From: Ruminococcus sp. zg-924
GTDB taxonomy: Bacteria; Bacillota; Clostridia; Oscillospirales; Acutalibacteraceae
Length of the DNA stretch: 64,000 bases
NCBI RefSeq assembly: GCF_024433635.1
Contig: NZ_WNJZ01000004.1
Coordinates: 1-64,000, forward strand
Reading direction: 5' to 3'
The notes below the pieces were generated by a model that worked only from the letters and a program-made list of their open reading frames with translations, was not told the DNA's origin and ran no database searches. The position numbers and the translations under genes are program-made. How positions within the stretch are numbered: position 1 is the first letter of the stretch; every line of letters starts with the position of its first letter. Positions 18,846 through 33,603 of this stretch are shown here, one piece after another.

Positions 18846-18921
18846 AGGGGTATAGCTCAGTTGGTAGAGCAGCGGTCTCCAAAACCGCGTGCCGAGGGTT
18901 CAAGTCCTTCTGCCCCTGCCA
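18846..18921 (+). tRNA. tRNA-Trp (anticodon CCA)
   Basis: A full cloverleaf with the 7-bp acceptor stem AGGGGTA/TGCCCCT, GGTTCAAGTCC T-arm, anticodon CCA at 18880-18882 in the loop CTCCAAA, and an encoded 3' CCA. It is the integration target of the mobile element. Its sequence from 18877 is repeated at 33559. Confidence 0.97.
18877..18921 (+). repeat. attL core, 45-bp direct repeat
   Basis: Starts at CTCC of the tRNA-Trp anticodon loop and runs through the CCA end. Identical to 33559-33603. Confidence 0.95.
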
Positions 18922-18935
18922 ATTACAAGTCCTTG

Positions 18936-18966
18936 AAAATGGCTTAGATAAGCCGTTTTTGAGGAT
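18936..18966 (+). terminator. Element-borne terminator after tRNA-Trp
   Basis: A 10-bp stem (18936-18945 with 18950-18959, one G-U) with a T tail. It replaces the chromosomal terminator, now displaced to 33606-33642 beyond attR. Confidence 0.7.
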
Positions 18967-18988
18967 TTTTCTTTTTAGGCTAATAGGC

Positions 18989-19030
18989 TTTCTAACACTA
19001 TACCCCTTGTGTTTCTAACACTTTTCTAAC
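18989..19030 (+). repeat. Integrase arm-type repeats, left end
   Basis: Three copies of TTTCTAAC, at 18989-18996, 19012-19019 and 19023-19030. Similar TCTAACAC and TTCTAAC motifs lie near attR (33408-33423). This fits arm sites bound by the N-terminal domain of a Tn916-type integrase. Confidence 0.55.
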
Positions 19031-19071
19031 GGCGGTGTTTTTCTTTTCGGAAAACTTTTACTAAAAAGTTC

Positions 19072-20256
19072 TTAACCACATTTATCCAAAGCTTCAGCAA
19101 TCGCAATTTTTGAGGTTTTGTCAATGTGAGCATAAAATTTCAATGTTGTTGCAGAACTACTGTGACCTAACCACTCTGCGACTTGAACAACCGTAAACCC
19201 TTTATTCAGAAGATTACTCGCAACGCTGTGTCTTAAATCGTGAAGCCTGATCATTGGTAAATCACTGTCTTTAATAATCTTGTGGAAGGTTCTCGTAAGA
19301 TAATTCGGTGTTATCACGCTACCATTATCAAAGGTGCAGACGTAGTCATTTGCACTATATCCCCTTCCGAGCAAAGCCATGCTTTTCTTTCTCTTTTCCA
19401 GCTGTGCTTCAAGCACCATCCTCGCTAGCTTCGTCATTGGTAAGGTACGATTACTGCTTGCAGTCTTTGTCGAGCTTACGTAATTTCCCCCAACACAATC
19501 CGGCAGATTCTCTAAGTACTTCTTCGTCCCCTGTTGAAGCGTTTCACATATCCATATTGTACCGTTTACAAAATCAACGTGCGACCACTTTAAGCCAAGC
19601 ACCTCACTTCGCCTTAGTCCGTATATACAGCACAATGTTATCGGAAGTTCAATACTCGTCCCCTTAACAATACTACTAAGCTTTATCATCTGCTCTGCGT
19701 TGAGAAAAGACGCATTGAACTGATTTCCCCTTGGTTTTTTGGCCGCACTCGCCGGATTTACAGAAATCAGCCCTTGCTCCACTGCATCAGCCAAAGCTTT
19801 GCTTATATTTTGGTGATGGTGCTTTATCGTTCTCGGTGACAGAGCCTTTTCTCCACTCATTCTACTGTTTGAGGTAGCCTCATACTTATAAAACTCTGTA
19901 AGCTGATAAGGCTTAAGCTCCTGCAAAAGTATACCCTTTCGCTTGAAATACGGGATAATATGATTAACCATATTTCCCCTGTAACCTCGGTATGTATTTG
20001 GTTTGATCTCGTTTTGGATATCCGAAAGCCAATTCTCAAAATACTCTGCAACGGTTATATCGGAATAGTAAGACACATTTTTGCTTTCAAGTTTCTGAAG
20101 CTCATCTCTTAAAAACTTCTCCGCACGTCTTTTATTTCCCTTAACCGGTAGATGAGTAGATATCCATTTCTGCTTTCTTTTTCCTTTTTCGTCTTTCAAA
20201 TTTATCACGGCATAGTATACGCTGTTTTTTTCTTGAACACTGCCTGTAATTGCCAT
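19072..20256 (-). CDS. int: Tyrosine recombinase (Tn916-type integrase)
   Basis: 394 aa. Catalyses site-specific integration and excision at tRNA-Trp. An N-terminal arm-binding domain (NLKDEKGKRKQKWISTHLP) is followed by a SAM-like core-binding domain (from about residue 65) and the catalytic domain. The active-site arginine is in YGLRRSEVLGLKW, the HxxR box is HDLRHSVAS, and the second His and nucleophile Tyr are in WLGHSSSATTLKFYAH. It sits 150 bp from attL and reads toward it, as usual for the cognate integrase. The ribosome site is AAAGGAG. Confidence 0.96.
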   Translation of the reverse strand: MAITGSVQEKNSVYYAVINLKDEKGKRKQKWISTHLPVKGNKRRAEKFLRDELQKLESKNVSYYSDITVAEYFENWLSDIQNEIKPNTYRGYRGNMVNHIIPYFKRKGILLQELKPYQLTEFYKYEATSNSRMSGEKALSPRTIKHHHQNISKALADAVEQGLISVNPASAAKKPRGNQFNASFLNAEQMIKLSSIVKGTSIELPITLCCIYGLRRSEVLGLKWSHVDFVNGTIWICETLQQGTKKYLENLPDCVGGNYVSSTKTASSNRTLPMTKLARMVLEAQLEKRKKSMALLGRGYSANDYVCTFDNGSVITPNYLTRTFHKIIKDSDLPMIRLHDLRHSVASNLLNKGFTVVQVAEWLGHSSSATTLKFYAHIDKTSKIAIAEALDKCG

Positions 20257-20343
20257 TTTTAATCTCCTTTCCTCGGCACTCAGTCAGCTGTTGATCGTAT
20301 TAATTGTAACTCTAAACAGCTGACTGTTCAAGTTTTTTCTATG

Positions 20344-20535
20344 TCAATTTAACTCTTTATCTAAATAATTAATAACGCACTGTTTAGGGATTATATACTT
20401 GCTTCCAACTCTTACCGATTTGATTTTACCTTCCCGTAAAAGCCTGTATACCTTCGTTCTTCCTATATGCAACATATCCCGTATGTTATCAACTGTAACA
20501 CAATCCTCGTAGTCTTTAAACATATCTTTTTTCAT
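20344..20535 (-). CDS. xis: Excisionase-like helix-turn-helix protein
   Basis: 63 aa from the ATG at 20535, which follows GAGGGTG in the end of the upstream gene; the two genes are one base apart. The MerR-like winged fold of the DNA-binding excisionase family is evident in VDNIRDMLHIGRTKVYRLLR and the wing GKIKSVRVGSKYIIPK. It lies directly upstream of the integrase gene, the classical place for a directionality factor that promotes excision. Confidence 0.85.
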   Translation of the reverse strand: MKKDMFKDYEDCVTVDNIRDMLHIGRTKVYRLLREGKIKSVRVGSKYIIPKQCVINYLDKELN

Positions 20536-20536
20536 A

Positions 20537-21865
20537 TTAATCACCCTCTACCCAATCATGCTCATCAAACGTATACGCTTGGAATAAAACACCATTATTA
20601 GTCAGGAATCTACCCTGCGAATCCTTCGGTATTCTTTCAGCGGCATCGGTATTATCTAGAACAATCATTGACAAAATATTATCAGCCCTGCCGCAAACTC
20701 GAAAATCAATATTGTTTTTAATTTGCCCGGAAAGTATTGTTGCGTCAGGCCTCTGTGTTGCAATAATAAGGTGAATACCGAATGCACGTCCTTGCCGTGC
20801 TATAACCGACAGACAGCTTTCTATTTTCACGACCTTCTCTTTTTGTGTTTTATCAAGTCCTGATTTATCAAGCACCTCTGCAATTTCATCACAGCCAACA
20901 ACAATTCGGCAAAGATTATCATCTGTCAACTTGTTATACTCGTCAATATTCGACACTCCCGTTTGAACAAGCAATTTTTTCCGCCTTTTAAGCTCCGACT
21001 TGATTTCCAATAGAGTTTGAAGTAATTCGTCCTCTTTGGTAACAATTACACTCTTCCTGTGCCATATCGTCGGAAAATCAACGCCGCCCTTGAAATCCGC
21101 AATATACACCTTTGCTTCTTTCAAAACACACTGCATTAATAGTAGCTTCAATAGAACGCTTTTACCTGAGCCTGTTGAACCTCCGATAAGTACATGCGGA
21201 ACTTTTGACAAGTCCACTGTTACCGTCTCAACCAAGCTTTCTCCCATATCTAACACGAACCCCTTGCGCTTTCTATTATTTGGAGTGTATGATAAAATAT
21301 CAGGCAAAGAATATTTACCATCAACTGCATAAAGCAGAACTCTACGAGGATTTTCCCCCGCCCTTACACTCTCTATGCGGATATTCAAAGCAGCTTCTAT
21401 CTTTTCTTGCTTGTCCTGCCATTCCGACACAGGGATTCCGTTTGATTCAAATTCAAGAATTATTATTCGTGCCTTTTTTTCTTTGACTCTACGTGAAATA
21501 AGCACAGGAGCTTCTCCTGCGTAGTTTACCAAACCCATACGGTGTAGGTTGTTGCTTATCCCTTTCGCACCTCTTGGCATACCTATCAGCAAAAGAAGTA
21601 CCACAAGAAGGACAGCCGAAACAACAGCAATTATTATTTCGACCATGTTTTTTAATATATTCCCGATTACCGGGAGAGAAGCACTCTCTCCCAGTATCAA
21701 AGTACGGTTAAACCATACGCTTGCTACAACTGCTATGTAAGCGATCAGTATAGCAAACAAACCTTTTCTAAACCACATTTTGCGAAATGAGTTTTCAAGA
21801 AACAGGAATATCACCTTAGTATTCCATCGGTTTCGCAGATAGCTTTTTGAGTTGTTGTCAATCAT
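20537..21865 (-). CDS. FtsK/SpoIIIE-type DNA translocase, TcpA-like coupling protein
   Basis: 442 aa. Two N-terminal membrane segments (about residues 35-55 and 75-97) are followed by an FtsK-like motor domain. Walker A is GGSTGSGKSVLL (about residue 227) and the Walker B region is IVVGCDEIAEVL. RQGRAFGIHLIIATQRPDA is the family signature. In mobile elements such proteins bring DNA to a conjugation channel. Its ATG overlaps the stop of rep (TAATG) and its ribosome site lies within the rep 3' end, so both are made together. It lacks a gamma domain, unlike chromosomal FtsK. Confidence 0.9.
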   Translation of the reverse strand: MIDNNSKSYLRNRWNTKVIFLFLENSFRKMWFRKGLFAILIAYIAVVASVWFNRTLILGESASLPVIGNILKNMVEIIIAVVSAVLLVVLLLLIGMPRGAKGISNNLHRMGLVNYAGEAPVLISRRVKEKKARIIILEFESNGIPVSEWQDKQEKIEAALNIRIESVRAGENPRRVLLYAVDGKYSLPDILSYTPNNRKRKGFVLDMGESLVETVTVDLSKVPHVLIGGSTGSGKSVLLKLLLMQCVLKEAKVYIADFKGGVDFPTIWHRKSVIVTKEDELLQTLLEIKSELKRRKKLLVQTGVSNIDEYNKLTDDNLCRIVVGCDEIAEVLDKSGLDKTQKEKVVKIESCLSVIARQGRAFGIHLIIATQRPDATILSGQIKNNIDFRVCGRADNILSMIVLDNTDAAERIPKDSQGRFLTNNGVLFQAYTFDEHDWVEGD

Positions 21866-22842
21866 TAGAGCTCACCTCCTCCCTTGTCCAGTACAACAAC
21901 AGGGTTAAGTTCCGTAACACTAAATTCGTTAAAATTTGTATAATGCATTACGGTGTTGATTCGTCTGCGTAAAGCTCCCCAAGTTTCACTTTTGTTCTTT
22001 TGCTCGTCCATATACTGCTGTTCGAGGGGTAGATTGCTTGTGATATACACAGTCGTATAGCATGCAAACTTATCCGCATATCTCGCAGGCAGCATCACCG
22101 GGTAAATGTCCAGGTAATTGAGCATAAATTCGATTGGCACTTGACTTGCAAATTCTTCAAAAACGAGCACAGGCTGTCCGCTATATGCATCGAAGTTAGG
22201 CACACCATTTTTGTAAGCGGTAATTCGGCATATTTGACTCGGGTGATGCTTTTCAAATATTCCACGGGTTTTACCTGTGCCTGTCGTGCCCCATATGTAC
22301 GTAACTTTGATGCGTCTCATTTGATCGGAATATTTCTCTCTAAGATACACTTGACGAATCGTCTCAATATTGTTTACCTTAAAGCCGTATTTCGGATATA
22401 GTTTTATAATATCGTACGTTGACATACCGTTCTCGATGTCCGAAATAATATCGGCCATATCCGGGCTTGATTCAGCACAAGGATCAGGAATATTGCCGTA
22501 CTCCTCGAAAGTGTCAATCAAGTTCGTCTCTGCTTTTTGAGTTCCCAACCATTTCCCTTCTTTGCGCAGATAATTTCGGTTATCCAACACACTCCCCTGA
22601 ACCCTATCACAATGAACAGCCGGAAAACGATTTTCAAGTGTTGAAAATCTAATCGGCGAACGGGAATAGATAAACACGTGGGTGTGTTTCGTTCCTGTGG
22701 TCGCGATTTCATCAACCAAGCAGAAATACTCAGGATTTGACAGTTGTACTCGCCTAATAATTTCAGCATGCGAAAGCTTATGAGCCTCAGGGTTGTTTAT
22801 CGTTAACAGCCACTTGCGTGACTGAGAATCTTTTGTATTCAT
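21865..22842 (-). CDS. rep: CRESS-like Rep: HUH endonuclease plus superfamily 3 helicase
   Basis: 325 aa. The N-terminal HUH domain has motif I WLLTINNPE (11-19), motif II HTHVFIY with metal-binding histidines 53 and 55, and motif III NYLRKEG with candidate nicking Tyr91 and Lys94. The C-terminal helicase domain has Walker A GTTGTGKT (185-192), Walker B PVLVFEEF (224-231) and motif C YITSN (about 270). This order matches eukaryotic CRESS-DNA virus Reps and related bacterial plasmid or mobile-element Reps. It would nick and unwind an origin to start rolling-circle replication or transfer. A stem-loop origin candidate lies just upstream. Confidence 0.9.
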   Translation of the reverse strand: MNTKDSQSRKWLLTINNPEAHKLSHAEIIRRVQLSNPEYFCLVDEIATTGTKHTHVFIYSRSPIRFSTLENRFPAVHCDRVQGSVLDNRNYLRKEGKWLGTQKAETNLIDTFEEYGNIPDPCAESSPDMADIISDIENGMSTYDIIKLYPKYGFKVNNIETIRQVYLREKYSDQMRRIKVTYIWGTTGTGKTRGIFEKHHPSQICRITAYKNGVPNFDAYSGQPVLVFEEFASQVPIEFMLNYLDIYPVMLPARYADKFACYTTVYITSNLPLEQQYMDEQKNKSETWGALRRRINTVMHYTNFNEFSVTELNPVVVLDKGGGEL

Positions 22843-22913
22843 AAATATCTCCTCCTTGTTTCAAAACCACTTTTGTCAATTGAATTTATTTATTATCCAA
22901 AATTTAGTCAATC

Positions 22914-22965
22914 GTAGCTTTTTGCTACTGCTACACTGCTACAAAGGGGTAATACTAACCCTTTG
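22914..22965. other. Candidate rolling-circle origin (iterons and stem-loop)
   Basis: Four copies of GCTAC or its complement (22914-22918, 22924-22928, 22930-22934, 22938-22942) precede a 7-bp perfect stem CAAAGGG/CCCTTTG (22942-22948, 22959-22965). The 10-base loop contains TAATACTAA. Three further outer pairs extend the stem past one mismatch. CRESS Reps typically nick a TAATATTAC-like loop beside short iterons, so the layout matches the adjacent Rep. The function is inferred. Confidence 0.6.
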
Positions 22966-22982
22966 CAGCTTGCCTGCGGCTT

Positions 22983-23025
22983 ACAGCCGGCACTTGATGT
23001 GCCGACTGTGCCGCACCACGGCTGT
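22983..23025. repeat. Nested hairpin region upstream of rep
   Basis: CGGCAC-TTGAT-GTGCCG hairpin (22988-23004) lies inside a wider ACAGCCG...CGGCTGT pairing (22983-22989, 23019-23025). It may be part of the origin or the 3' end of the preceding transcript. Confidence 0.5.
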
Positions 23026-23354
23026 TAAGTATCTTTGTCCGCTATGTGAACCGCATTTGCCTTTGCCGAAACTTGGTAACCCGAAGGAGTCCAATAGAGC
23101 GAAAGTTCAAGTCCGTCAAACACGACTACTGGATAGTCGCTACCGTTTAGCTCAATTAGCGGAGTATTTCCAGCAATCTTCACTGCTATCTTCTCTAGCG
23201 CGTGTGCTGGCATGGCGACAATATACTTAAATCCGTCAACCTCGTCGGTACGCTTTCCGCCTGTGTATACAAATGACGGAACTACGTCCACCAGAAAAAG
23301 ATTGCCGCCAACTGTTGCGTATGAATTAATCTTCAAATCCGAAAGCCTGAACAA
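23025..23354 (-). CDS. Small element protein, possibly DUF961 (Tn916 Orf22/23-like)
   Basis: 109 aa from a TTG placed six bases after AGAGGTG; a GTG nine bases upstream is within that ribosome site. Segments such as FKYIVAMPAHALEKIAVKI and YPVVVFDGLELSLYW resemble in spacing the beta-strand-rich DUF961 proteins. Those are encoded upstream of the coupling ATPase and relaxase in Tn916-like elements. The likeness is weak and its role is unknown. Its position before the rep-ftsK-xis-int series suggests it is the first gene of the transfer operon. Confidence 0.6.
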   Translation of the reverse strand: MFRLSDLKINSYATVGGNLFLVDVVPSFVYTGGKRTDEVDGFKYIVAMPAHALEKIAVKIAGNTPLIELNGSDYPVVVFDGLELSLYWTPSGYQVSAKANAVHIADKDT

Positions 23355-23556
23355 ACTTATCACCTCTTTTAAAAAAATCTAGACGGGCGCCCATCCTTGA
23401 CTATAGCATACAACATTTAGATCCAAAAAAAAGGACATTTCGGCATAAGTTTTTTCTCTAAAAATTCGCATAAAATGCCCGTTTCTCGCCTTATTTCAGC
23501 TTTTTTCATGCACATTTGAGGTTTTTACCGACACTATGGAATGTCCCAAACTTCAA

Positions 23557-23886
23557 TTATTTTCCTGAACCTACATATTGAAGGTCCTTAACTTTAAACC
23601 TTTTTGCGTATATATATATCTCTCTATTAAACTCTTCTGCAGTAGATAAATTAAGTTCTAGTATATATTTATATACAACGCTTAGATTGTTATATTTTTC
23701 AGTATAGTTGCATATTGTAACTAACTCGTCAATTTCAATTAAATCAAGCCTGAGTGCAACGCATAAACCCAAAAGGGTCATTAATCGTGGAGTGTAATCT
23801 TTCAATTTCCTATCACAACTCATTATGCGATGAATTGTCTTTTCAGTTGTATTGGCGCTTGCCGAAAGCTTAGTATAGTTAATCAA
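23557..23886 (-). CDS. Helix-turn-helix-like protein
   Basis: 109 aa by its TTG start. The segment TKLSASANTTEKTIHRIM, followed about 15 residues later by LMTLLGLCVALRL, has the shape of an XRE-type helix-turn-helix. The C-terminal half is alpha-helical and rich in Tyr and Leu. No clear ribosome site precedes the TTG, and the frame stays open upstream without a usual start codon. Either it is coupled to the small gene that ends 12 bases before, or its N-terminus has been lost by frameshift. It may regulate the element. Confidence 0.5.
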   Translation of the reverse strand: MINYTKLSASANTTEKTIHRIMSCDRKLKDYTPRLMTLLGLCVALRLDLIEIDELVTICNYTEKYNNLSVVYKYILELNLSTAEEFNREIYIYAKRFKVKDLQYVGSGK

Positions 23887-23897
23887 ACCGCTTGGCT

Positions 23898-24077
23898 TTA
23901 AATAATTCGCTCTTCGAGCGTAAGAGTATATTTTGTCAACAAGCTTTTTCTTGCAATATACAAGACATTAGAATTGTTATCATGCTCATGTATTTTTTCA
24001 TACAAAGCTTCTCTCTGAGTTTCACTCAGTTCAGTAGCACGTTTTAGCTTCTCGTTATTGCTTGCGCCGAGCAGCAA
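23898..24077 (-). CDS. Possible small protein, 59 aa
   Basis: A reading frame with TTG start, AGGGAG nine bases upstream, and a plausible soluble helical product (EKLKRATELSETQREALYEK, then LYIARKSLLTKYTLTLEERII at the end). The stop lies 12 bases before the helix-turn-helix-like gene. The composition looks coding, but I do not recognise it. It could be the N-terminal piece of its neighbour separated by a frameshift. Confidence 0.4.
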   Translation of the reverse strand: MLLGASNNEKLKRATELSETQREALYEKIHEHDNNSNVLYIARKSLLTKYTLTLEERII

Positions 24078-24929
24078 TCCGAATTACTCCCTAATGAGTC
24101 GGAAAGATAAATGAACAAACAAATCTGTCTTTTGAAAAAAACAAGTAACAAAAAATTTAAGGTAATTTTAACAAAAAACATTTTATCACGCTCCTTCCGA
24201 TAATAATTAATAAAAGTAGTAACCAACTCAAAATCAGAGTATAAAAAATTGCAGCTGTTATCGGATTGACCGTTAATAGCTGCACATTAAAATAATACAG
24301 GCGACAGTTTTCACTGCCGCCGTAAATTTTTCTTTTCATTTAACAAATCAGGGCAAGATTTATTCTCGCCTTGCTTTATTGTTATTGCGATAAAAGCAAT
24401 TATATTAACAATTTTGAGTAGAAACCTTACTTTCTGCTCTTTTTAACACCTATAAGTGTTCTATCATCAATAGGGTATAGTACCCCTCAAAAGCTCCTCA
24501 ACGCCCGTAGCGGAGGAGAGCCGAGTTATAGTGCGAACAATATAAGCATAAGCTATAAAAGTTGGACCATAACAAGGAACGCACACCCTATCTCTTTGCC
24601 ATAGGCAACAAGGATGCGGCGGCATACACAAAAGAGTGTAGCAATGAACATCATAAGGCCGTTTCTTTTGACCTTGTTTTTATTTTACCACACACGTTAA
24701 AATTTGTCAACCATTTTGAATTTATTCCGCTCGATATAGTTTAAAACAGAGTTTGTCATTTAATTTATGTTATTTTGAGTTTAATTCAAGGAGAAGATAA
24801 TAATTCATCACAATGATTCTTTCTTTTCATTCGGACAATATCAGTAAGTAATTCAACTTTATCTTAACACAGCAAGCGGCAGCTGAACCCAGCTGCCGCC
24901 CATTTTTTCACTTCACCATTCAAATTAAA
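24078..24929. other. Gene-poor stretch inside the element with RNA-like hairpins
   Basis: I find no convincing gene here. There are hairpins near 24303-24324 (a 9-bp stem with one mismatch, then a T-rich tail) and 24345-24375. An inverted repeat around CTCC/GGAG lies at about 24490-24520. The segment from 24530 to 24690 is less AT-rich than its surroundings and could hold a structured RNA or a decayed gene. Confidence 0.3.
24876..24907. terminator. Strong hairpin after the cohesin-anchor gene
   Basis: A 10-bp perfect GC-rich stem (24876-24885 with 24890-24899). The T-tract lies on the plus-strand side, so it is the better terminator for rightward transcription. For the leftward gene it may act mainly as a 3' stabilising hairpin. 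Confidence 0.55.
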
Positions 24930-25967
24930 TTAGTTATTTCTCTTTCTCTTCTTGAGTGAACCGATAACATACACACTCACTACACTCAACAGCATTACGC
25001 CGAGGATTGTAAATACAATTACATTCTGTCCTGTTTTAACCGTTCCGCTTACTGCCGAAGGAGTTTTGCCATTTGGCAAAGTAGCATTATTGTTATCGGT
25101 TGAAACCTTTGTCGGTCCCTGTGTTGTAGGCTTAGCCGTCGGCTTTGTGTCTTCATCACCTGACGGGTCTGTAGAATCATCTCCTGTTGGCTTTGTAGGC
25201 TCTATAACAGGGATCTCTTTTGTTTCAAGCACTTCACCGCATACAGTACACTCTTTATGCTGACTACCCTTATCTGTTTCTGTCGCAGCCTTATCTTCAA
25301 TCCATTCCGAAGGTGTATGTGCAGTCTTCTTGATAATTACGCTATTGTGGTCGGCAATTTCAAAGGTTCCTGTCGCGTCAGAGAACCATTTTCCGCAACC
25401 ATCACAAACATAGTATTCGATATTGCCTTCCTTTGTACAGGTGGCTTTCTGAGCGTCAACCTTTTTTAAATCGTGATTATCAACCTTGTTCTCTTTAACA
25501 GTTACAATACCGTTGTTAACCGCAAATTCTACATTCTGTTCCTTTTGGTTAACAACTTCGTCCTTGTCGTAGGTTACTGTTATAGGATAATCCCCTGGTG
25601 TTGCATTGTCTTTAATCTTAAACAAAATACCTGCCATTTTTCCGTTAACGGTGACATCATCCAAGCCGTACCACTGTACTCTGATTGGATTACCGTAACG
25701 AGTCGTAATGGCGCCAAATGTGCTGTCATCATCAACGCTCACCAATTCCAAAGCGCTGGAATCATAGGAAATATAAACAGCCCAACCATTGATACCCGGA
25801 TTGTTTGAACATGTCAACGTAATCTTCACATTATCACCGGCATAACCGCTTGCGTTATCAAGTGACATTGTCGACGTATCGGCAGCGCTTATCTGAACAA
25901 CAGCACCGACTAAGATGATAGCAAGCACTACCGTCAGTGAAATAACTTTGATAAATTTTTTCTTCAT
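24930..25967 (-). CDS. Membrane-anchored cohesin-domain surface protein
   Basis: 345 aa. Signal peptide (about 1-29). The cohesin domain (about 33-158) is shown by NNPGINGWAVYISYDSSALEL, a W-containing VQWYGLDD segment, and GDYPITVTYDKDEV. Two short CxxC segments follow (YYVCDGCGKWF, HKECTVCGEVL). Next comes a Pro/Thr/Asp linker (about 258-305), and finally a membrane segment with a KKRKRNN tail. There is no LPXTG motif; the C-terminal helix is the anchor. By domain logic it holds dockerin-bearing partners on the cell surface, the other two secreted proteins of the cluster being obvious candidates. Confidence 0.85.
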   Translation of the reverse strand: MKKKFIKVISLTVVLAIILVGAVVQISAADTSTMSLDNASGYAGDNVKITLTCSNNPGINGWAVYISYDSSALELVSVDDDSTFGAITTRYGNPIRVQWYGLDDVTVNGKMAGILFKIKDNATPGDYPITVTYDKDEVVNQKEQNVEFAVNNGIVTVKENKVDNHDLKKVDAQKATCTKEGNIEYYVCDGCGKWFSDATGTFEIADHNSVIIKKTAHTPSEWIEDKAATETDKGSQHKECTVCGEVLETKEIPVIEPTKPTGDDSTDPSGDEDTKPTAKPTTQGPTKVSTDNNNATLPNGKTPSAVSGTVKTGQNVIVFTILGVMLLSVVSVYVIGSLKKRKRNN

Positions 25968-25994
25968 AAATAACTCCGTCCTTTTCTGTGTTTA

Positions 25995-28154
25995 TTAATA
26001 TATGTTTACATCCCAACCAGCAACATACTGATTAAGACGTATAACATCCCTGAGGTTTACCTTGCCGTCACCATTGACGTCCTTGGCACCTTCATTTACT
26101 TTAACATTCCAGCCTGCGACAAACTGATTTAATCTGATTACATCCCTCAAATTAACTTTCCCATCTTCATTTATGTCACCAGGCGTATGTGCAGCAACCT
26201 TAACTGCGCCGTTCATTACGTCAAAGTGAACATTTTCTTCCTTGTCATTACAAATCTCTTCTTTATCATAGGTTACAGTAATCGGATATGTACCCTCTTT
26301 TGCGTTGGATTTTATTACAAATGTTAATGTAAACAAGTTTCCGTTTGTTTTCACATTTGTAAGATCAAACCATTGTACATGATATGGATTTTTTGTTATT
26401 ATGTTTGATGTTGTGATTTCGCCAAAATCACCTTGTTCGCAGCTCTTTAGCTCAAGCGCATTGGAATCATATCCAACTGAGACTGCCCATCCGTTAATTC
26501 CCGGGTTATTCTTCATTGACACATTCACTGTTACTGTTCCGCCCGGACCTGCTGTTTTGGTGTCAACAACAATTTGAGGGGTTCTTGAAGAAACAACGGT
26601 CACTACACAAGTTGCTGTTTTTCCGTTAGAAGTCCTAGCAGCAATAGTAGATGTGCCAACCTTTTTAGCTGTTACCATACCGTTTGATACAGTGGCAACA
26701 GAAGTATTGCTGCTTTTCCAAGTTACTGTTTTATCAGTTGTATTGCTTGGCTTTACAGTTGCAGACAATAAAACACTTCCACCGACATTCAGGCTGCAAG
26801 ACGTCCTGTTTAAAGTAATACCAGTCGCATTTACAGCCGAGCTCTTTACCGTCACGCTACAGGCTGCTGTCTTTCCGTTAGCAGTTTTCACGGTCACAAT
26901 AGCTTGACCTGCTGCTTTGGCTGTTACTTTGCCCGCACTATCAACTGCGGCAACGCGTGTATTTGAACTGCTCCACCTATAACTTGTCGAAGCATTTTTC
27001 GGGTAAACACTCTTAGTCAATGTATATGTTTCGCCAATAGTTAATGAAAGCTTACTCGGATTTATGCTTACGGATGTAGGCTCTGTTGGAATGGTAATCG
27101 TTGAAGTAGAAAATTTAATACCATTAGCATTTGCAAACTGGTGTGCAAATGATCCACTCTTTCCGTAAATTGTTAAGGTACTCGGACAATTATAAAAGAC
27201 ATATTTATCTGTTAAATCATCATTATTTAATCTTGCATTGCCAATCTGTATGAACGGATCAGGTATAGAAACCATCTTTAATGATGTACAGTTTCGAAAC
27301 GCTCCATAACCGATTATTGTACTTCCGTTTGCAATTGTTACCTTATTCAACAATATGCATCCAGCAAATGCATAGCTTCCCATGCTATCAACACTATTTC
27401 CTATTGCTACTGTTGTCAGCTTGGTACAGTCCGAAAAACTATTTGAGCCAATTTTTGTAACGCTGTTTGGTATAGTTATGCTTGTCATATTCGAGCAATT
27501 TTTAAAAGCACTATCACCTATTGAGGTAAGGCTATTTCCTAATGTTACACTGCTCATATTTTTGCAGTTATAAAATGCATTATTGCCAATACTTCTTACA
27601 CTGTTTGGAATTGCTACTCTTGATAATGAAGTGCATCCGTTGAAGGCATATCCATCTATCTTTGTTACTGTGTTTGGAATGCTTACCGTGATAAGAGAGG
27701 TACAATCCTGAAATGCTCCATAACCGATTATTGTACTTCCGTTTGCAATTGTTACCTTATTCAACAATATGCATCCAGCAAATGCATAGCTTCCCATGCT
27801 ATCAACACTATTTCCTATTGCTACTGTTGTCAGCTTGGTACAGTCCGAAAAACTATTTGAGCTAATTTTTGTAACGCTGTTTGGTAGCGTTATTCCTGTT
27901 ATTTTGCTATTTTGTTTAAAGGCATTAATACCAATAGAAGTAACATTGTATCCGCCTAATTTTGATGGAATATTTAAGATAGTTTCATTACCTGAATAGC
28001 CTGTAATAGTCGCATTTGAATTATTCACAGAATATTTATACCCTTTTGTTGTATATTCTGCTGCACTTGCAGTTACTGGTACAATCGAAAACACGCTAAA
28101 CGCCATAATAATTGCAAGCAACACAGGCATAACTTTTCGAGTTTTTTGAATCAC
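25995..28154 (-). CDS. Secreted BspA-type LRR / Big_2 / cohesin / dockerin protein
   Basis: 719 aa from a GTG behind GGAGG. Signal peptide; about eleven LRR_5 (BspA-like) repeats of 23 residues (about 60-330) with the pattern AFxxCxxLxxVxIxxSV; two Big_2 immunoglobulin-like domains (about 355-525); a cohesin domain (about 530-655); and a C-terminal dockerin with two calcium loops DINEDGKVNLRD and DVNGDGKVNLRD. BspA repeats usually bind host or matrix proteins. With both a cohesin and a dockerin it could bridge between proteins. Its last 190 residues are almost identical to those of the CHAP protein upstream. Confidence 0.88.
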   Translation of the reverse strand: MIQKTRKVMPVLLAIIMAFSVFSIVPVTASAAEYTTKGYKYSVNNSNATITGYSGNETILNIPSKLGGYNVTSIGINAFKQNSKITGITLPNSVTKISSNSFSDCTKLTTVAIGNSVDSMGSYAFAGCILLNKVTIANGSTIIGYGAFQDCTSLITVSIPNTVTKIDGYAFNGCTSLSRVAIPNSVRSIGNNAFYNCKNMSSVTLGNSLTSIGDSAFKNCSNMTSITIPNSVTKIGSNSFSDCTKLTTVAIGNSVDSMGSYAFAGCILLNKVTIANGSTIIGYGAFRNCTSLKMVSIPDPFIQIGNARLNNDDLTDKYVFYNCPSTLTIYGKSGSFAHQFANANGIKFSTSTITIPTEPTSVSINPSKLSLTIGETYTLTKSVYPKNASTSYRWSSSNTRVAAVDSAGKVTAKAAGQAIVTVKTANGKTAACSVTVKSSAVNATGITLNRTSCSLNVGGSVLLSATVKPSNTTDKTVTWKSSNTSVATVSNGMVTAKKVGTSTIAARTSNGKTATCVVTVVSSRTPQIVVDTKTAGPGGTVTVNVSMKNNPGINGWAVSVGYDSNALELKSCEQGDFGEITTSNIITKNPYHVQWFDLTNVKTNGNLFTLTFVIKSNAKEGTYPITVTYDKEEICNDKEENVHFDVMNGAVKVAAHTPGDINEDGKVNLRDVIRLNQFVAGWNVKVNEGAKDVNGDGKVNLRDVIRLNQYVAGWDVNIY
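26008..26579 (-). repeat. 572-bp cohesin-dockerin repeat, copy A
   Basis: Nearly identical to 28355-28926, with about nine mismatches by eye. It encodes the shared C-terminal cohesin plus dockerin module. Confidence 0.95.
27301..27472 (-). repeat. 172-bp LRR DNA repeat, copy 1
   Basis: Matches 27715-27886 with one mismatch, at an offset of 414 bp. This equals six 23-residue LRR units, a recent internal duplication. Confidence 0.9.
27715..27886 (-). repeat. 172-bp LRR DNA repeat, copy 2
   Basis: Second copy of the internal LRR duplication. Confidence 0.9.
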
Positions 28155-28341
28155 ATTTTAACCTCCTTTTCGATCCCTTAGACCATTCAAAATGTCAAAT
28201 TAGTATCTACTCTGTCTTCCTGCTATCTTTATAATAACACAAATCCAAAGTTCTCGGATTTATTTCACCACTTACTTTTTTATCATGCCTCCTTTTTGAT
28301 TTTGATTATTTATATTCATTAGCCAAGGATAATAAAAACCT

Positions 28342-31215
28342 TTAATAGAGAACCACATCCCAACCAGCAACATACTGATTAAGACGTATAACATCCCTGA
28401 GGTTCACCTTGCCGTCACCATTGACGTCCTTGGCACCTTCATTTACTTTAACATTCCAGCCTGCGACAAACTGATTTAATCTGATTACATCCCTCAAATT
28501 AACTTTCCCATCTTCATTTATGTCACCAGGCGTATGTGCAGCAACCTTAACTGCGCCGTTCATTACGTCAAAGTGAACATTTTCTTCCTTGTCATTACAA
28601 ATTTCTTCTTTATCATAGGTTACAGTAATCGGATATGTACCCTCTTTTGCGTTGGATTTTATTACAAATGTTAATGTAAACAAGTTTCCGTTTGTTTTCA
28701 CATTTGTAAGATTAAACCATTGTATGTGATATGGATTATTTGTTATTATGTTTGATGTTGTGATTTCGCCAAAATCACCTTGTTCGCAGCTCTTTAGCTC
28801 AAGCGCATTGGAATCATATCCAACGGAGACTGCCCATCCGTTAATTCCCGGGTTATTCTTCATTGACACATTCACTGTTACTGTTCCACCCGGACCTGCT
28901 GTTTTGGTGTCAACAACAATTTGAGGAGTATCTGGATTTATTGGCTTTAGAGGATCAGTGTAGATATCCTTATAGTTGTATCCGCAAACTGCGCACGTAT
29001 GCAATGTATAACCTTGAGTAGTTGTTGTCGGTGCTATAATTTTTTCAACATATTTATGACCGATTGCTGGAATAGTTTGAGTTTCTTTCTTATCACATGA
29101 AGAACAGGTTCTCGTTTTTGTTCCTACCAAAGTACAGGTTGCTCTTTGGGTTGTGATCCACGCACCGTAACTATGTCCTTTTACCGGAATAGTTTTAGTT
29201 TCATTTTTACCGCAAGCAAAACACATTCTCATTTTGCTTCCGTTCTTTATACAGGTTGCTTCCTTTGTAACTTTCCATTCTCCAAAAACATGTTGCTCTA
29301 TTGCATTTGTGTAATCGTCTTTGTAAGTATCTCCACATATACTGCATTTATGCAACGTATATCCTTTTTCACTGCAAGTAGGACTCACAACTTTCGTAGT
29401 ATAATTATGCGAACATTTTATTGTAACCGACAGCGTTTTTTTCGTCAGAATTGTTTCACCGTTGGTAGTATCCTTCAAGCTAAAGTCTATTGTGTAATCA
29501 CCTGTCCTTTTAGCCGTTATGGTGCAAGGACAAGTATTACCATCCCTAGCACCCCATTTTGTAGTAAATACATCTGTGTTTCTTAAGGCACTGAATGTAT
29601 ACTTGGAGGGAAGAAGCCCCGTTGCTGTTACATTAATTGTCTGTGTCGGATTATTTGCTAAATCAAAGGTTAATGATGATTTACTCAAGCTTAACGAAGC
29701 TGAACCCAGTTTATTAATTTTAAATTTTTGGGCATTTGTCCCATTGTATGTATACAGCCGAATATTAGTGCCTTCCTCAGGCGATGCTCCTTCAACATCA
29801 AGAATCGCTGCATTACAATTTATTGGTCTAAAACAATAATAACCGTTACCTGCACTGTAAATCATCCATTTTTGGGCATCTGTTCCATTCTCTGAATAAA
29901 CTCCTACATTCGTTCCGCTAACATATCCGTTATTATTTACATCTATGCAGTAATTACTGTTCTTCCTTGACTTTATAACATAACTACCATCCGACTGCCT
30001 AACAAAACAGAAAATCTGGTTGTCAGAATTTGTATTTTTACTCATATAAACATTTGTGTAATCGCTCAAAGATGCATGCGTTAAAACATTATTATCCGAC
30101 ACCGCACTACCAATCTGAGCATAAAAATCACTGCCTAAATTAGATTGGGTCCCCCAATTAAGTTTCTTAATGACGAAAGAAAGACAGCCATTATCCGTTG
30201 CACCTCTAAAGGTTCCTCCACTGTTTGAAACCTCAGCATAAACTTTCCATGTACCATACACACCTCTGCAAGCAAATCTGAAATAGTTTTTATCCCCAAG
30301 ATCGGGATCAGCTGTCCTTCCGTCAGGTGCAACAAAGTGTAGTTTATAATTCGAGATATTTGAGTCATAAGGAGTAATAGTTACTGTTTGTATTTCAGAT
30401 TCATAAAATCCTGTCGAAGAAATGCTTATAGTATATCCAGTAGGAGCAGGATTGTTATTAACCCTCGTTAAATACTCCATACTGCAATAACCGCTGTAAC
30501 CATTCCATTCCACATGAGCCCAATTGCCATCTGCCTTACTAACATATACAATTGTACCTTTTGGTATTGAGGCTATAACTGACCCTCCACCATGCGAATT
30601 TCTCATATTTAACGGCTGACTCCTTGTGGTAACCGTGTAATCTCCAGCATAACTTTCAGAACAATTACATCCACCTCCTCGATAATTTGGTCTTACAATA
30701 TAAGCAATTGTTTGAGTTTGTGTTGGATGCTTTCTAACACTCCTAGCATATAAACTACCTCCGCTACCAGAATTTCCTCCATAGGTACTAACATTGCCAT
30801 TAGAAGCTGCATACACTATCTCAACATGATCTGCTCCGTTATTGCCATAAAAAACAATATCACCTGGTTGAGCTGTACTTTTGCTGACATAATAACCTCC
30901 AGAGTTGATAATATTATATCTTAATGTTGGACAGTATCCTGATGCCGGAATGGCATCAGATTGATTTGCCAATATCGCACAATCACTAACAAAATCAGCA
31001 CACCACTGTTCTGTGTAACCTAATTGAGAACCAGTTTTACCCAACTGTGCTCTTGCAACATTTACTACATCTTCTGCACCATTACCCGTAATACTATAAC
31101 TTTTATTGAAGTTATATGTTCTGCTCTGAGTTGCCCCCACATTAACTGTACCTAAAATTGTAAAACAGGAAATCACCACAAGAAAACTTAGTACAACACT
31201 AATAATCCTTTTCAT
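28342..31215 (-). CDS. Secreted CHAP amidase / SH3 / beta-trefoil / cohesin / dockerin protein
   Basis: 957 aa. Signal peptide (about 1-28). The CHAP domain (about 50-178) has the catalytic Cys in YTEQWCADFVSD and His in GADHVEIVY. A bacterial SH3 domain (about 190-255) follows, a linking beta region, and a ricin-type beta-trefoil (about 365-510) with repeated QKW/QKF motifs. Then come a Cys-rich series of CxxC units (about 605-765), a cohesin (about 775-900) and a dockerin. CHAP domains are cysteine amidases or endopeptidases of peptidoglycan, so this is a cell-wall-acting enzyme built to join a cohesin-dockerin assembly. A 29-bp inverted repeat lies 86 bp upstream of its start. Confidence 0.88.
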   Translation of the reverse strand: MKRIISVVLSFLVVISCFTILGTVNVGATQSRTYNFNKSYSITGNGAEDVVNVARAQLGKTGSQLGYTEQWCADFVSDCAILANQSDAIPASGYCPTLRYNIINSGGYYVSKSTAQPGDIVFYGNNGADHVEIVYAASNGNVSTYGGNSGSGGSLYARSVRKHPTQTQTIAYIVRPNYRGGGCNCSESYAGDYTVTTRSQPLNMRNSHGGGSVIASIPKGTIVYVSKADGNWAHVEWNGYSGYCSMEYLTRVNNNPAPTGYTISISSTGFYESEIQTVTITPYDSNISNYKLHFVAPDGRTADPDLGDKNYFRFACRGVYGTWKVYAEVSNSGGTFRGATDNGCLSFVIKKLNWGTQSNLGSDFYAQIGSAVSDNNVLTHASLSDYTNVYMSKNTNSDNQIFCFVRQSDGSYVIKSRKNSNYCIDVNNNGYVSGTNVGVYSENGTDAQKWMIYSAGNGYYCFRPINCNAAILDVEGASPEEGTNIRLYTYNGTNAQKFKINKLGSASLSLSKSSLTFDLANNPTQTINVTATGLLPSKYTFSALRNTDVFTTKWGARDGNTCPCTITAKRTGDYTIDFSLKDTTNGETILTKKTLSVTIKCSHNYTTKVVSPTCSEKGYTLHKCSICGDTYKDDYTNAIEQHVFGEWKVTKEATCIKNGSKMRMCFACGKNETKTIPVKGHSYGAWITTQRATCTLVGTKTRTCSSCDKKETQTIPAIGHKYVEKIIAPTTTTQGYTLHTCAVCGYNYKDIYTDPLKPINPDTPQIVVDTKTAGPGGTVTVNVSMKNNPGINGWAVSVGYDSNALELKSCEQGDFGEITTSNIITNNPYHIQWFNLTNVKTNGNLFTLTFVIKSNAKEGTYPITVTYDKEEICNDKEENVHFDVMNGAVKVAAHTPGDINEDGKVNLRDVIRLNQFVAGWNVKVNEGAKDVNGDGKVNLRDVIRLNQYVAGWDVVLY
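28355..28926 (-). repeat. 572-bp cohesin-dockerin repeat, copy B
   Basis: Pair of 26008-26579, in direct orientation at an offset of 2347 bp. Recombination between the copies would delete the LRR portion. Confidence 0.95.
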
Positions 31216-31300
31216 AACATATCCTCTCTTTCAATTAATATTGTTGCATATTTTTATTTTTGCCACAAAGAATAATACTATTAGGGGTTTGCTCGGTTCA

Positions 31301-31329
31301 TATCGCAAAGTATCTCACTTTGCGATAAA
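31301..31329 (+). repeat. 29-bp inverted repeat IR1 with recombinase core-site architecture
   Basis: Ten-base arms TATCGCAAAG and CTTTGCGATA flank a 7-base asymmetric centre TATCTCA. Exact reverse complement of 32675-32703. It lies between the CHAP gene and the second recombinase. Confidence 0.95.
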
Positions 31330-31369
31330 ATACAGATAACATAAGTAAAAAGGCCATTTCTCGAATACA

Positions 31370-31391
31370 TTGACTATAATCTTGACGGCGA
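31370..31391 (+). repeat. Direct repeat DR1 at the recombinase 3' end
   Basis: TTGACTATAATCTTGACGG and following bases match 32514-32535 with two mismatches in 22. It may be an arm-type or regulatory site for the enclosed recombinase. Confidence 0.7.
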
Positions 31392-32495
31392 TTATTCTGA
31401 TAAAAAATTCAATTTATCCATGCTTTTTCTTTTTAAGTCCATTGATGAGTGCACATAACGCTCTAAAGTGATTTTTACATTTGAGTGACCTAAAATCTCA
31501 CTAAGACTTTTTATTTCAAACCCATTTTCGACGCATCTGGTTGCGAAAGTATGTCTTAAAACATGAAATTTAACATTTCTTATATTACATATTTTTAGTA
31601 CATTTTTGAAATAGTACTGCATATTTCTTGGTTCTATATACTGTTTTGACGAACCGGTAAGTATATAGCAATCTGAGTTTTGTTTTAACTTCAGCAAAGT
31701 ATCAATAATTGTTTCCGGGATTGGTATCCTACGCAAAGAATCTTCGCTTTTGGGCGAAGTAATAATGACCCTTGTTTTACGGGAAGTTTGTTCGCCCATA
31801 TTATCCTGTATTCTTAGCATAGTTTTGTTTATGCTCAAAAGCCTTTCTCTTATATCTATATCCGACCATTTTAAAGCACACAATTCACCTATTCTGATTC
31901 CTGTATAGAGACTAAGCAAAATCCCAAAATTTTTATTGTCCATATTCTTGATCAAATACGTACAGAGTTTCTGTTGTTCAAAAATAGTAAGCGTTTCAAT
32001 TTCACACTTTTTGCATTTGATAGAAACAAAACTCAAATCACAGTTGTGTCCTATACCTTTGCAGTTAGCATACTTTAATATATTTTTTATTATCGCTAAT
32101 ATATCGCTTACAGTCTTACTTGCAAGGCCTTCCCTTATCAATGAATTCATATATGACTGAACAACATCCGCCGTTATATCTGATATTTCGTATTTACCTA
32201 ATATCGGAATGATACGGTTATTAATAACCGATTTATAATGCGATAATGTAGATTCCTTAGTGCTCAGCTTTTTGTTTTCAAGCCAATCAAATACTATTTG
32301 CTCAAAAACAGCTGAGTGAATTTTATCAATTGGTTCATTGGGATTGATTTGCTTAAGTTTATTTCTTACCTCGGTATAACTTTTACCATATAAATAACCG
32401 TATATAGCCCTATGATTTAAACCACGCTCCTTTATATACCTTCCTTCCCATCTTCCGTCTTTACGTTTATAAATATTTTCACCTTTTCTGGGCAT
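31392..32495 (-). CDS. Second tyrosine recombinase, candidate invertase
   Basis: 367 aa. The N-terminus (GENIYKRKDGRWEGRYIK) is the AP2-like arm-binding form. A core-binding domain follows (about 60-150), and a catalytic domain with the Arg box YTGIRIGELCALKW, the HxxR box FHVLRHTFATR and the Tyr region ILGHSNVKITLERYVHS. All catalytic residues are present. Four cysteines between residues 147 and 170 (NCKGIGHNC, KCKKCE) are unusual and could bind metal. The gene lies between perfect inverted repeats and between imperfect direct repeats, so a role in local DNA inversion is plausible. It might instead be a second integrase. Confidence 0.9.
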   Translation of the reverse strand: MPRKGENIYKRKDGRWEGRYIKERGLNHRAIYGYLYGKSYTEVRNKLKQINPNEPIDKIHSAVFEQIVFDWLENKKLSTKESTLSHYKSVINNRIIPILGKYEISDITADVVQSYMNSLIREGLASKTVSDILAIIKNILKYANCKGIGHNCDLSFVSIKCKKCEIETLTIFEQQKLCTYLIKNMDNKNFGILLSLYTGIRIGELCALKWSDIDIRERLLSINKTMLRIQDNMGEQTSRKTRVIITSPKSEDSLRRIPIPETIIDTLLKLKQNSDCYILTGSSKQYIEPRNMQYYFKNVLKICNIRNVKFHVLRHTFATRCVENGFEIKSLSEILGHSNVKITLERYVHSSMDLKRKSMDKLNFLSE

Positions 32496-32513
32496 ATTTA
32501 TCTACTCCTTTCT

Positions 32514-32535
32514 TTGACTATAATTTTGACGGAGA
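32514..32535 (+). repeat. Direct repeat DR2 before the recombinase start
   Basis: TTGACTATAATTTTGACGG and following bases, pair of 31370-31391, in the leader of the second recombinase. Confidence 0.7.
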
Positions 32536-32674
32536 ATTATCATAAAAGTAATTCTTTCAAACTAAAAAAAGACATAATTCACCTTTTCATGAAAAAAATA
32601 CAGAATAATCGTAATTTATATTGACTTTTTTGCGATTAAGTATTAATATTCTAAGTGTAATATATATTAACATA

Positions 32675-32703
32675 TTTATCGCAAAGTGAGATACTTTGCG
32701 ATA
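32675..32703 (-). repeat. 29-bp inverted repeat IR2
   Basis: Exact reverse complement of IR1, including the asymmetric centre (TGAGATA on the plus strand). The two sites enclose 31301-32703. The rest of 32496-32958 is AT-rich with no gene. Confidence 0.95.
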
Positions 32704-32902
32704 ATTTTATTTAACGCCAATTATCATTTTGCTTTATTGTTTATTTTTTTGATAACCGCAATTTCAGTTTTACATACTTTCTTTATCTACCCCCAACATT
32801 TTATAATTACTTCCCTAAAACATATTAACAATGCAAGTTCAACTGTTTATAACAGACATTATATCTATTTAAAGTAGGCGTATCAATACAATTTAATATT
32901 TA

Positions 32903-32932
32903 TTGTAGCTATATCCGAACTCTGTGTATAGT
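32903..32932 (+). promoter_or_regulatory. Promoter of the Cro/CI-type regulator
   Basis: TTGTAG, 18-bp spacer, TATAGT, 26 bases before the start codon. Confidence 0.5.
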
Positions 32933-32958
32933 AGAATTATATACAGGTGGTGACTAAC

Positions 32959-33267
32959 ATGGAAAAGAAAGAATTTATTAAGCGCTTAGTTGAGCTTCGT
33001 GTTAACAAGGGTGTTTCGGCAAGAGATATGAGTTTAACTTTAGGACAAAGTCCAAGCTATATTAATAATATTGAAAACGGAATCAACCTACCCTCGATGA
33101 CAGTATTCTTTTATATCTGTGATTATTTCAAAATCACCCCAAAGGAGTTTTTTGACACCACCTCTCCAAATCCTGTAAAAGAAAGAGAGCTTTTAGATGC
33201 AGCTAAATGTCTTGACGGTGAGCAGCTTGAGCACTTGATTGCAATTGCGAAAGGACTAAAAAAATAA
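32959..33267 (+). CDS. Cro/CI-type (XRE) transcriptional regulator
   Basis: 102 aa from the ATG at 32959; AGGTGG eight bases before it is the ribosome site, so upstream GTG codons are not used. The helix-turn-helix is VSARDMSLTLGQSPSYINNIENG (about residues 17-39), followed by LPSMTVFFYICDYFKITPKEFF, typical of single-domain XRE proteins. The C-terminal part (ELLDAAKCLDGEQLEHLIAI) may mediate dimerisation. It is the only rightward gene of the element and may control integration, transfer or the surface cluster. Confidence 0.85.
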   Translation: MEKKEFIKRLVELRVNKGVSARDMSLTLGQSPSYINNIENGINLPSMTVFFYICDYFKITPKEFFDTTSPNPVKERELLDAAKCLDGEQLEHLIAIAKGLKK

Positions 33268-33407
33268 CATCCCGTCAAAGGATGTATCACTAACATATAA
33301 ATGCAAATCCGCATCAGGGCATTGTATTTACAACCTACTCCATTTATGAGTTACTAATAAATAAAAACATGTATTTTATGATCAACCAGCCGACTGTACG
33401 CCTTACA

Positions 33408-33423
33408 TCTAACACATTCTAAC
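33408..33423 (+). repeat. Integrase arm-type repeats, right end
   Basis: TCTAACAC and TTCTAAC, the same motif as at 18989-19030, about 140 bp inside attR. Nothing else is seen between 33268 and 33559. Confidence 0.45.
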
Positions 33424-33558
33424 AATTATCTTCAAAAAAATTTTCAAAATCGAAAAACTGTCGTAAAACCACCAATTATTCAGCTTTTATTTATAGCAAA
33501 AGAACCAAATATAATCATAAAACACGTGGCAACACTACCTGAAAATCGTCCATATTCG

Positions 33559-33603
33559 CTCCAAAACCGCGTGCCGAGGGTTCAAGTCCTTCTGCCCCTG
33601 CCA
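33559..33603 (+). repeat. attR core, 45-bp direct repeat
   Basis: Identical to the 3' part of tRNA-Trp (18877-18921). The sequence before it does not continue the tRNA, so it is not a second functional tRNA gene. Confidence 0.95.

Follow-up and report, generated by a model that had tools for sequence, protein, structure and literature searches.

A probable promoter-inversion switch enclosing its own tyrosine recombinase beside a cohesin/dockerin surface operon in Ruminococcus sp. zg-924

Results

The window referred to below is the whole 64,000-nucleotide stretch of DNA that was analysed. Within it, positions 18877-33603 are occupied by a 14.7-kb element integrated in tRNA-Trp, which holds both a small recombinase cassette and the operon beside it (Table 1). 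An empty form of the integration site is seen in genome G002, where the tRNA-Trp flank runs straight into sequence that matches the window to the right of attR, and related integrases were found at the same tRNA in G004 and G005. Between 24930 and 31215 two proteins that each carry both cohesin and dockerin domains are encoded beside a membrane-anchored cohesin protein, a set from which a cell-surface chain could be built. Searched at E 1e-30 against the five remaining genomes of the genus, the CHAP protein had no match.

Table 1. Positions of the cassette, its neighbours and the surrounding mobile element in the window
Feature	Coordinates	Strand	Remarks
attL, 3' part of tRNA-Trp	18877..18921	+	
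Integrase of the 14.7-kb element	19072..20256	-	distinct from the putative switch recombinase
FtsK/TcpA-like ATPase	20537..21865	-	
Rep-like protein	21865..22842	-	
Likely target gene 3, cohesin protein, 345 aa	24930..25967	-	C-terminal membrane segment read from sequence
Likely target gene 2, BspA-like LRR, Big_2, cohesin, dockerin protein, 719 aa	25995..28154	-	domain search
Likely target gene 1, CHAP, SH3, ricin-lectin, cohesin, dockerin surface protein, 957 aa	28342..31215	-	domain search
IR1, putative left core (crossover) site	31301..31329	+	11-bp arms flank ATCTC; central 7 bp TATCTCA; TATCGCAAAGTATCTCACTTTGCGATAAA
Arm-type direct repeat CCGTCAAGATTATAGTCA	31371..31388	-	just past recombinase stop
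Tyrosine recombinase, 367 aa, Tn1549/Tn916-type	31392..32495	-	arm-binding (inferred), core-binding and catalytic domains; Pfam and model
Arm-type direct repeat CCGTCAAAATTATAGTCA	32515..32532	-	just 5' of recombinase start
Candidate outward promoter, TTGACT-17-TAATAT	32621..32649	+	25 bp inside IR2
IR2, putative right core site	32675..32703	-	IR1 in inverted copy
IR2 hairpin followed by TTTTATTTAA, terminator-like	32676..32714	+	faces the parked candidate promoter; -15.1 kcal/mol, z -5.8
XRE-type HTH regulator	32947..33267	+	other side; downstream of the candidate promoter in the present orientation
attR, 45-bp direct repeat of tRNA-Trp 3' part	33559..33603	+	

The cassette is bounded by two inverted sites. 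As an earlier note on this DNA had reported, these are exact reverse complements: all 29 of 29 positions pair, with 1345 bp between the two copies. We searched the genome (2.2 Mb) allowing up to 3 mismatches and recovered the pattern exactly twice, while the chance expectation for it within the window is 0. A multi-site shufflon in the window was rejected, since the genome has just two copies of the site. Each site has a 5-bp asymmetric spacer, ATCTC, set between inverted arms of 11 bp; the 10-bp arms and 7-base asymmetric centre described earlier amount to the same structure once the symmetric T and A are counted with the centre. The overlap at IR1 and IR2 is an exact match. The distance from IR1 to the CHAP start codon at 31215 is 86 bp, as previously given.

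The sole evident gene between the sites is the recombinase open reading frame, which looks intact. Pfam analysis identified integrase catalytic and SAM-like domains, and in an alignment with 28 relatives the residues R201, K249, H311, R314, H337 and Y347, which make up the R-K-H-R-H-Y catalytic set of Tn1549/Tn916-type recombinases, were invariant; an N-terminal GENIYKRKDGRWEGRY motif was mostly invariant too. The closest solved sequences and folds are Tn1549 integrases, with 6emz the best fold match (TM 0.63-0.72). In an AlphaFold model (mean pLDDT 89) a three-stranded sheet and a helix make up the N-terminal part, alongside a helical core-binding domain and a catalytic domain. This is the three-domain layout of arm-binding, core-binding and catalytic parts, from which we infer an arm-binding role for the N-terminal domain. 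The sites are inverted around the gene, not direct-repeat att sites around an excisable element as for an ICE or IME integrase, and the enzyme is a tyrosine recombinase, not a serine recombinase of the Hin family.

Relatives of the recombinase (38-60% identity) were drawn from genome contigs, from whole genomes of the same family and from viral contigs. In 88 loci (84 without duplicates) the recombinase gene lies between inverted sites, which in the relatives are of the type TTTCG[TC]A[GA]AGT-N5-ACT... and stand ∼200 bp upstream and ∼75 bp downstream of the gene. The best 24-bp agreement of the two ends was mostly 20-24 within an element, as opposed to mostly 16-18 when ends from mismatched loci were compared; the control of six other integrases of the window's genome gave best 24-bp matches of 16-17. 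Of the 97 family members placed on a tree, 82 had detected sites, and the rest were scattered over it. Spacers vary from element to element, while the central 7 bp had 0 mismatches between the two ends across 73 elements, a count with some bias because the ends were picked by best match, although this bias alone would not keep mismatches out of the centre, and the outer and inner arms do differ. A within-element spacer count is biased by the choice of best-matching ends; the positional count given here for the central 7 bp is fairer and retains part of the bias. Recombination between matched overlaps predicts such identity. Many relatives have sites that are not perfect palindromes, yet their overlaps match and one end remains identical to the other.

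Direct repeats of the form CCGTCA-N6-xxGTCA lie just before the start of the recombinase and close to its stop. CCGTCA flanks the gene on both sides in 62/84 elements and in 0/1680 shuffles. These repeats resemble arm-type sites and are probably bound by the N-terminal domain. The nearest relative, L127 in genome G003 (60% identity), is without the N-terminal domain and shows no evident CCGTCA repeats; this one case is consistent with such binding.

A promoter-like sequence directed outward through the upstream site, with at least 10/12 matches to TTGACA-TATAAT, was found in 67/83 elements (∼8/83 for shuffles), and in 28 of those 67 the match was 12/12. Inward promoters were found in 16/83, slightly above shuffles. 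The candidate promoter of the window matches at 9/12, which is no better than shuffles, and fits the class by its position alone. When the segment 31330-32674 was inverted in silico the candidate came to stand 139 bp before the CHAP gene, on the CHAP strand; the present orientation has no promoter match of the candidate's score that near the CHAP gene. The putative invertible unit probably carries a promoter.

The neighbours of the relatives are diverse. Their likely targets are mostly long genes or operons of surface, capsule, T7SS-like or signalling types. In a subset (L003, L007, L022, L024, L026, L027, L033, L043 and L098) a small XRE-like gene starts 4-36 bp outside the site at the 3' end of the recombinase, and is possibly the first gene switched on. 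DUF3990 genes adjoin the element in L060 and L063. The loci L007-L012 represent a near-identical cassette common to several genera, with an Erm(B)-like methylase gene ∼450 bp past one site and an XRE gene past the other; the flanks are shared among these loci, indicating that the cassette moves inside a larger element.

We also examined how the elements are oriented relative to their surroundings. Long genes reading outward occupy the recombinase-3' side in 52 elements and the promoter (5') side in 16. Terminator-like hairpins within 160 bp outside the sites are found on the promoter side in 37/80 and on the other side in 9/80. Target and terminator were on opposite sides in 35/36 classifiable elements (p ∼1.6e-5), and in a minority of copies the two have exchanged sides jointly. 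This opposition indicates that the outside context has a polarity and that the element occurs both ways within it. Colinear homologous operons adjoin opposite sides of the element in L018 as against L036 and L029, all of one genus, and a TasA/camelysin-like operon does so in L048 as against L138, L143 and L151; these pairs are between species, so that separate insertion in opposite directions is possible, and the loci are related and not independent samples; both points limit all of the orientation counts given here. Contig ends gather near the sites: among upstream ends within 4 kb, 12/21 fall no more than 755 bp from the start codon, a pile-up that is expected where an assembler meets mixed orientations. 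No flipped copy of the window locus was found in its genus in collections with one genome per species. A second genus contained two cassette copies in the same orientation, and scans of IMG/VR returned few relatives and no orientation pair.

Discussion

We interpret the cassette as an inverton that encloses its own recombinase and would act as a promoter-inversion switch for the surface operon, and we assign this reading a probability of about 0.83. It draws on features present in the DNA itself: the sites, the repeats, the intact recombinase, the conserved architecture and the homologous operons found in both orientations across species. The crossover sites, the 1.4-kb inversion and the altered CHAP transcription proposed by the earlier note likewise gain support at the sequence level from the conserved architecture, the invariant 7-bp overlap, the outward promoter and those same operons. 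The core-binding and catalytic domains of the recombinase would engage the core sites, and its N-terminal domain probably contacts the CCGTCA direct repeats. Strand exchange in the 7-bp overlap, if catalysed as predicted, would reverse the 1.35-kb segment and with it a promoter that is directed outward just inside the recombinase-5' site. In the present orientation this putative promoter faces the XRE gene through the hairpin and T-run. The cassette is most likely OFF for the CHAP operon at present, because the candidate promoter now meets the IR2 hairpin and TTTTATTTAA. After inversion the promoter, if active, would read through IR1 into the CHAP/LRR/cohesin genes, giving the ON state. The unit affected is likely the three-gene cohesin/dockerin surface operon as a whole.

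Of the other explanations, the one that fares best, though we think it improbable, accepts that the cassette inverts and holds that it does so to control the recombinase or the XRE regulator and not the surface operon. The candidate outward promoter does now face the XRE gene at 32947, and XRE genes adjoin the element in some relatives too; a hairpin with a T-run nevertheless lies between promoter and XRE gene in the window, the XRE gene has a nearby promoter-like match of its own that is slightly better, and the likely target in relatives is, as described above, usually a long gene or operon of another kind.

It is very unlikely that the gene is a degenerate ICE/IME integrase whose palindromes are leftover attachment sites, or operators or terminators, at which no recombination occurs. 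Such a role for the palindromes would not predict ends and overlaps that stay identical in the many relatives with imperfect palindromes, and gene and catalytic residues alike are intact and conserved. The surrounding element, moreover, supplies an integrase and tRNA-Trp att sites of its own. These points weigh against this explanation even though the enzyme folds like an ICE integrase and the IR2 site of the window, with its T-run, scores as a terminator.

Least probable of all is a small transposable element, with a single tyrosine recombinase and inverted terminal sites, that is mobile and serves as no regulatory switch: in its favour are the near-identical copies in different genera (L007-L012) and the diversity of neighbours among relatives, but recombination between inverted sites by this class of enzyme yields inversion and not excision, the cassette is single-copy in the genome with no target duplication around its sites, likely target genes begin near the sites and read away from them with the terminator on the opposite side, the outward promoter is conserved, and the widespread copies share flanking DNA and so travel in larger elements.

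The promoter-inversion switch that we favour can be compared with several known systems. In flagellar phase variation the H segment has an outward promoter inside it, and inversion connects this promoter to, or disconnects it from, an operon outside. The Salmonella Hin gene lies inside the invertible H segment (PMC2784873). A recombinase gene and, on the reading proposed here, an outward promoter within one invertible segment would be common to both; Hin is a serine recombinase, whereas the window cassette has a tyrosine recombinase with presumed arm-type sites. By analogy, the Hin segment would be the closest design functionally, with a different class of enzyme, and the cassette is best read as its tyrosine-recombinase counterpart, with a terminator outside it in the putative OFF state.

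The C. difficile CwpV switch is of 195 bp and has neither promoter nor recombinase inside (PMC2784873, PMC5903667); an intrinsic terminator is thought to act in its OFF state (PMC2784873), and RecV, which is encoded elsewhere, works on several switches (PMC2784873, PMC5903667). It resembles our proposal in that inversion controls a surface protein of Clostridia with a terminator in the OFF state, and is unlike the window cassette in lacking an enclosed promoter or recombinase. In the hCom2 community, group-139 invertons of Clostridia were linked to invertase group 35, a tyrosine-type recombinase/integrase, and their orientation shifted over time in reads; the two examples with coordinates are ∼250 bp, with the invertase nearby (PMC11892184). 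The likeness is one of Clostridia and of a tyrosine-type recombinase/integrase adjoining inverted repeats, while the examples are short with the invertase outside and the sites of the window are 1.35 kb apart with the recombinase enclosed. The group-35 invertases are possibly related to the window recombinase. A fimbrial inverton of Providencia stuartii, an 844-bp putative invertible segment, encloses a recombinase ORF (PMC5903667) as the window cassette does; its context is gammaproteobacterial and fimbrial, and its 14-bp repeats are imperfect. The Tn1549/Tn916 integrases are nearest in solved fold and catalytic residues; they excise and insert a transposon, whereas the window sites are inverted around the gene alone.

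Common inverton scans generally limit the spacing of repeats and so would miss cassettes whose sites are ∼1.4 kb apart. We suggest, at roughly even odds, that the elements collected here form a widespread and so far unnamed Clostridia class of self-enclosed tyrosine-recombinase promoter switches that short-inverted-repeat scans have missed for this reason. Its fixed parts would be core sites, arm repeats, a Tn1549-type recombinase, an outward promoter and an outside terminator, set before unrelated operons for surface proteins, capsule, EssC/T7SS-like systems, TasA-like proteins and BTAD regulators. No paper describing a Clostridia class of tyrosine invertons that enclose their recombinase turned up in a literature search that covered few subscription papers.

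Should the switch behave as we propose, a single portable ON/OFF module equipped with its own recombinase would be common to many Clostridia, and the constancy of its parts would allow phase-variable genes to be predicted from a single assembly. As a compact inversion system it is suited to tests in a laboratory host. In the window, a cohesin/dockerin surface operon carried on a mobile element would be phase-variable.
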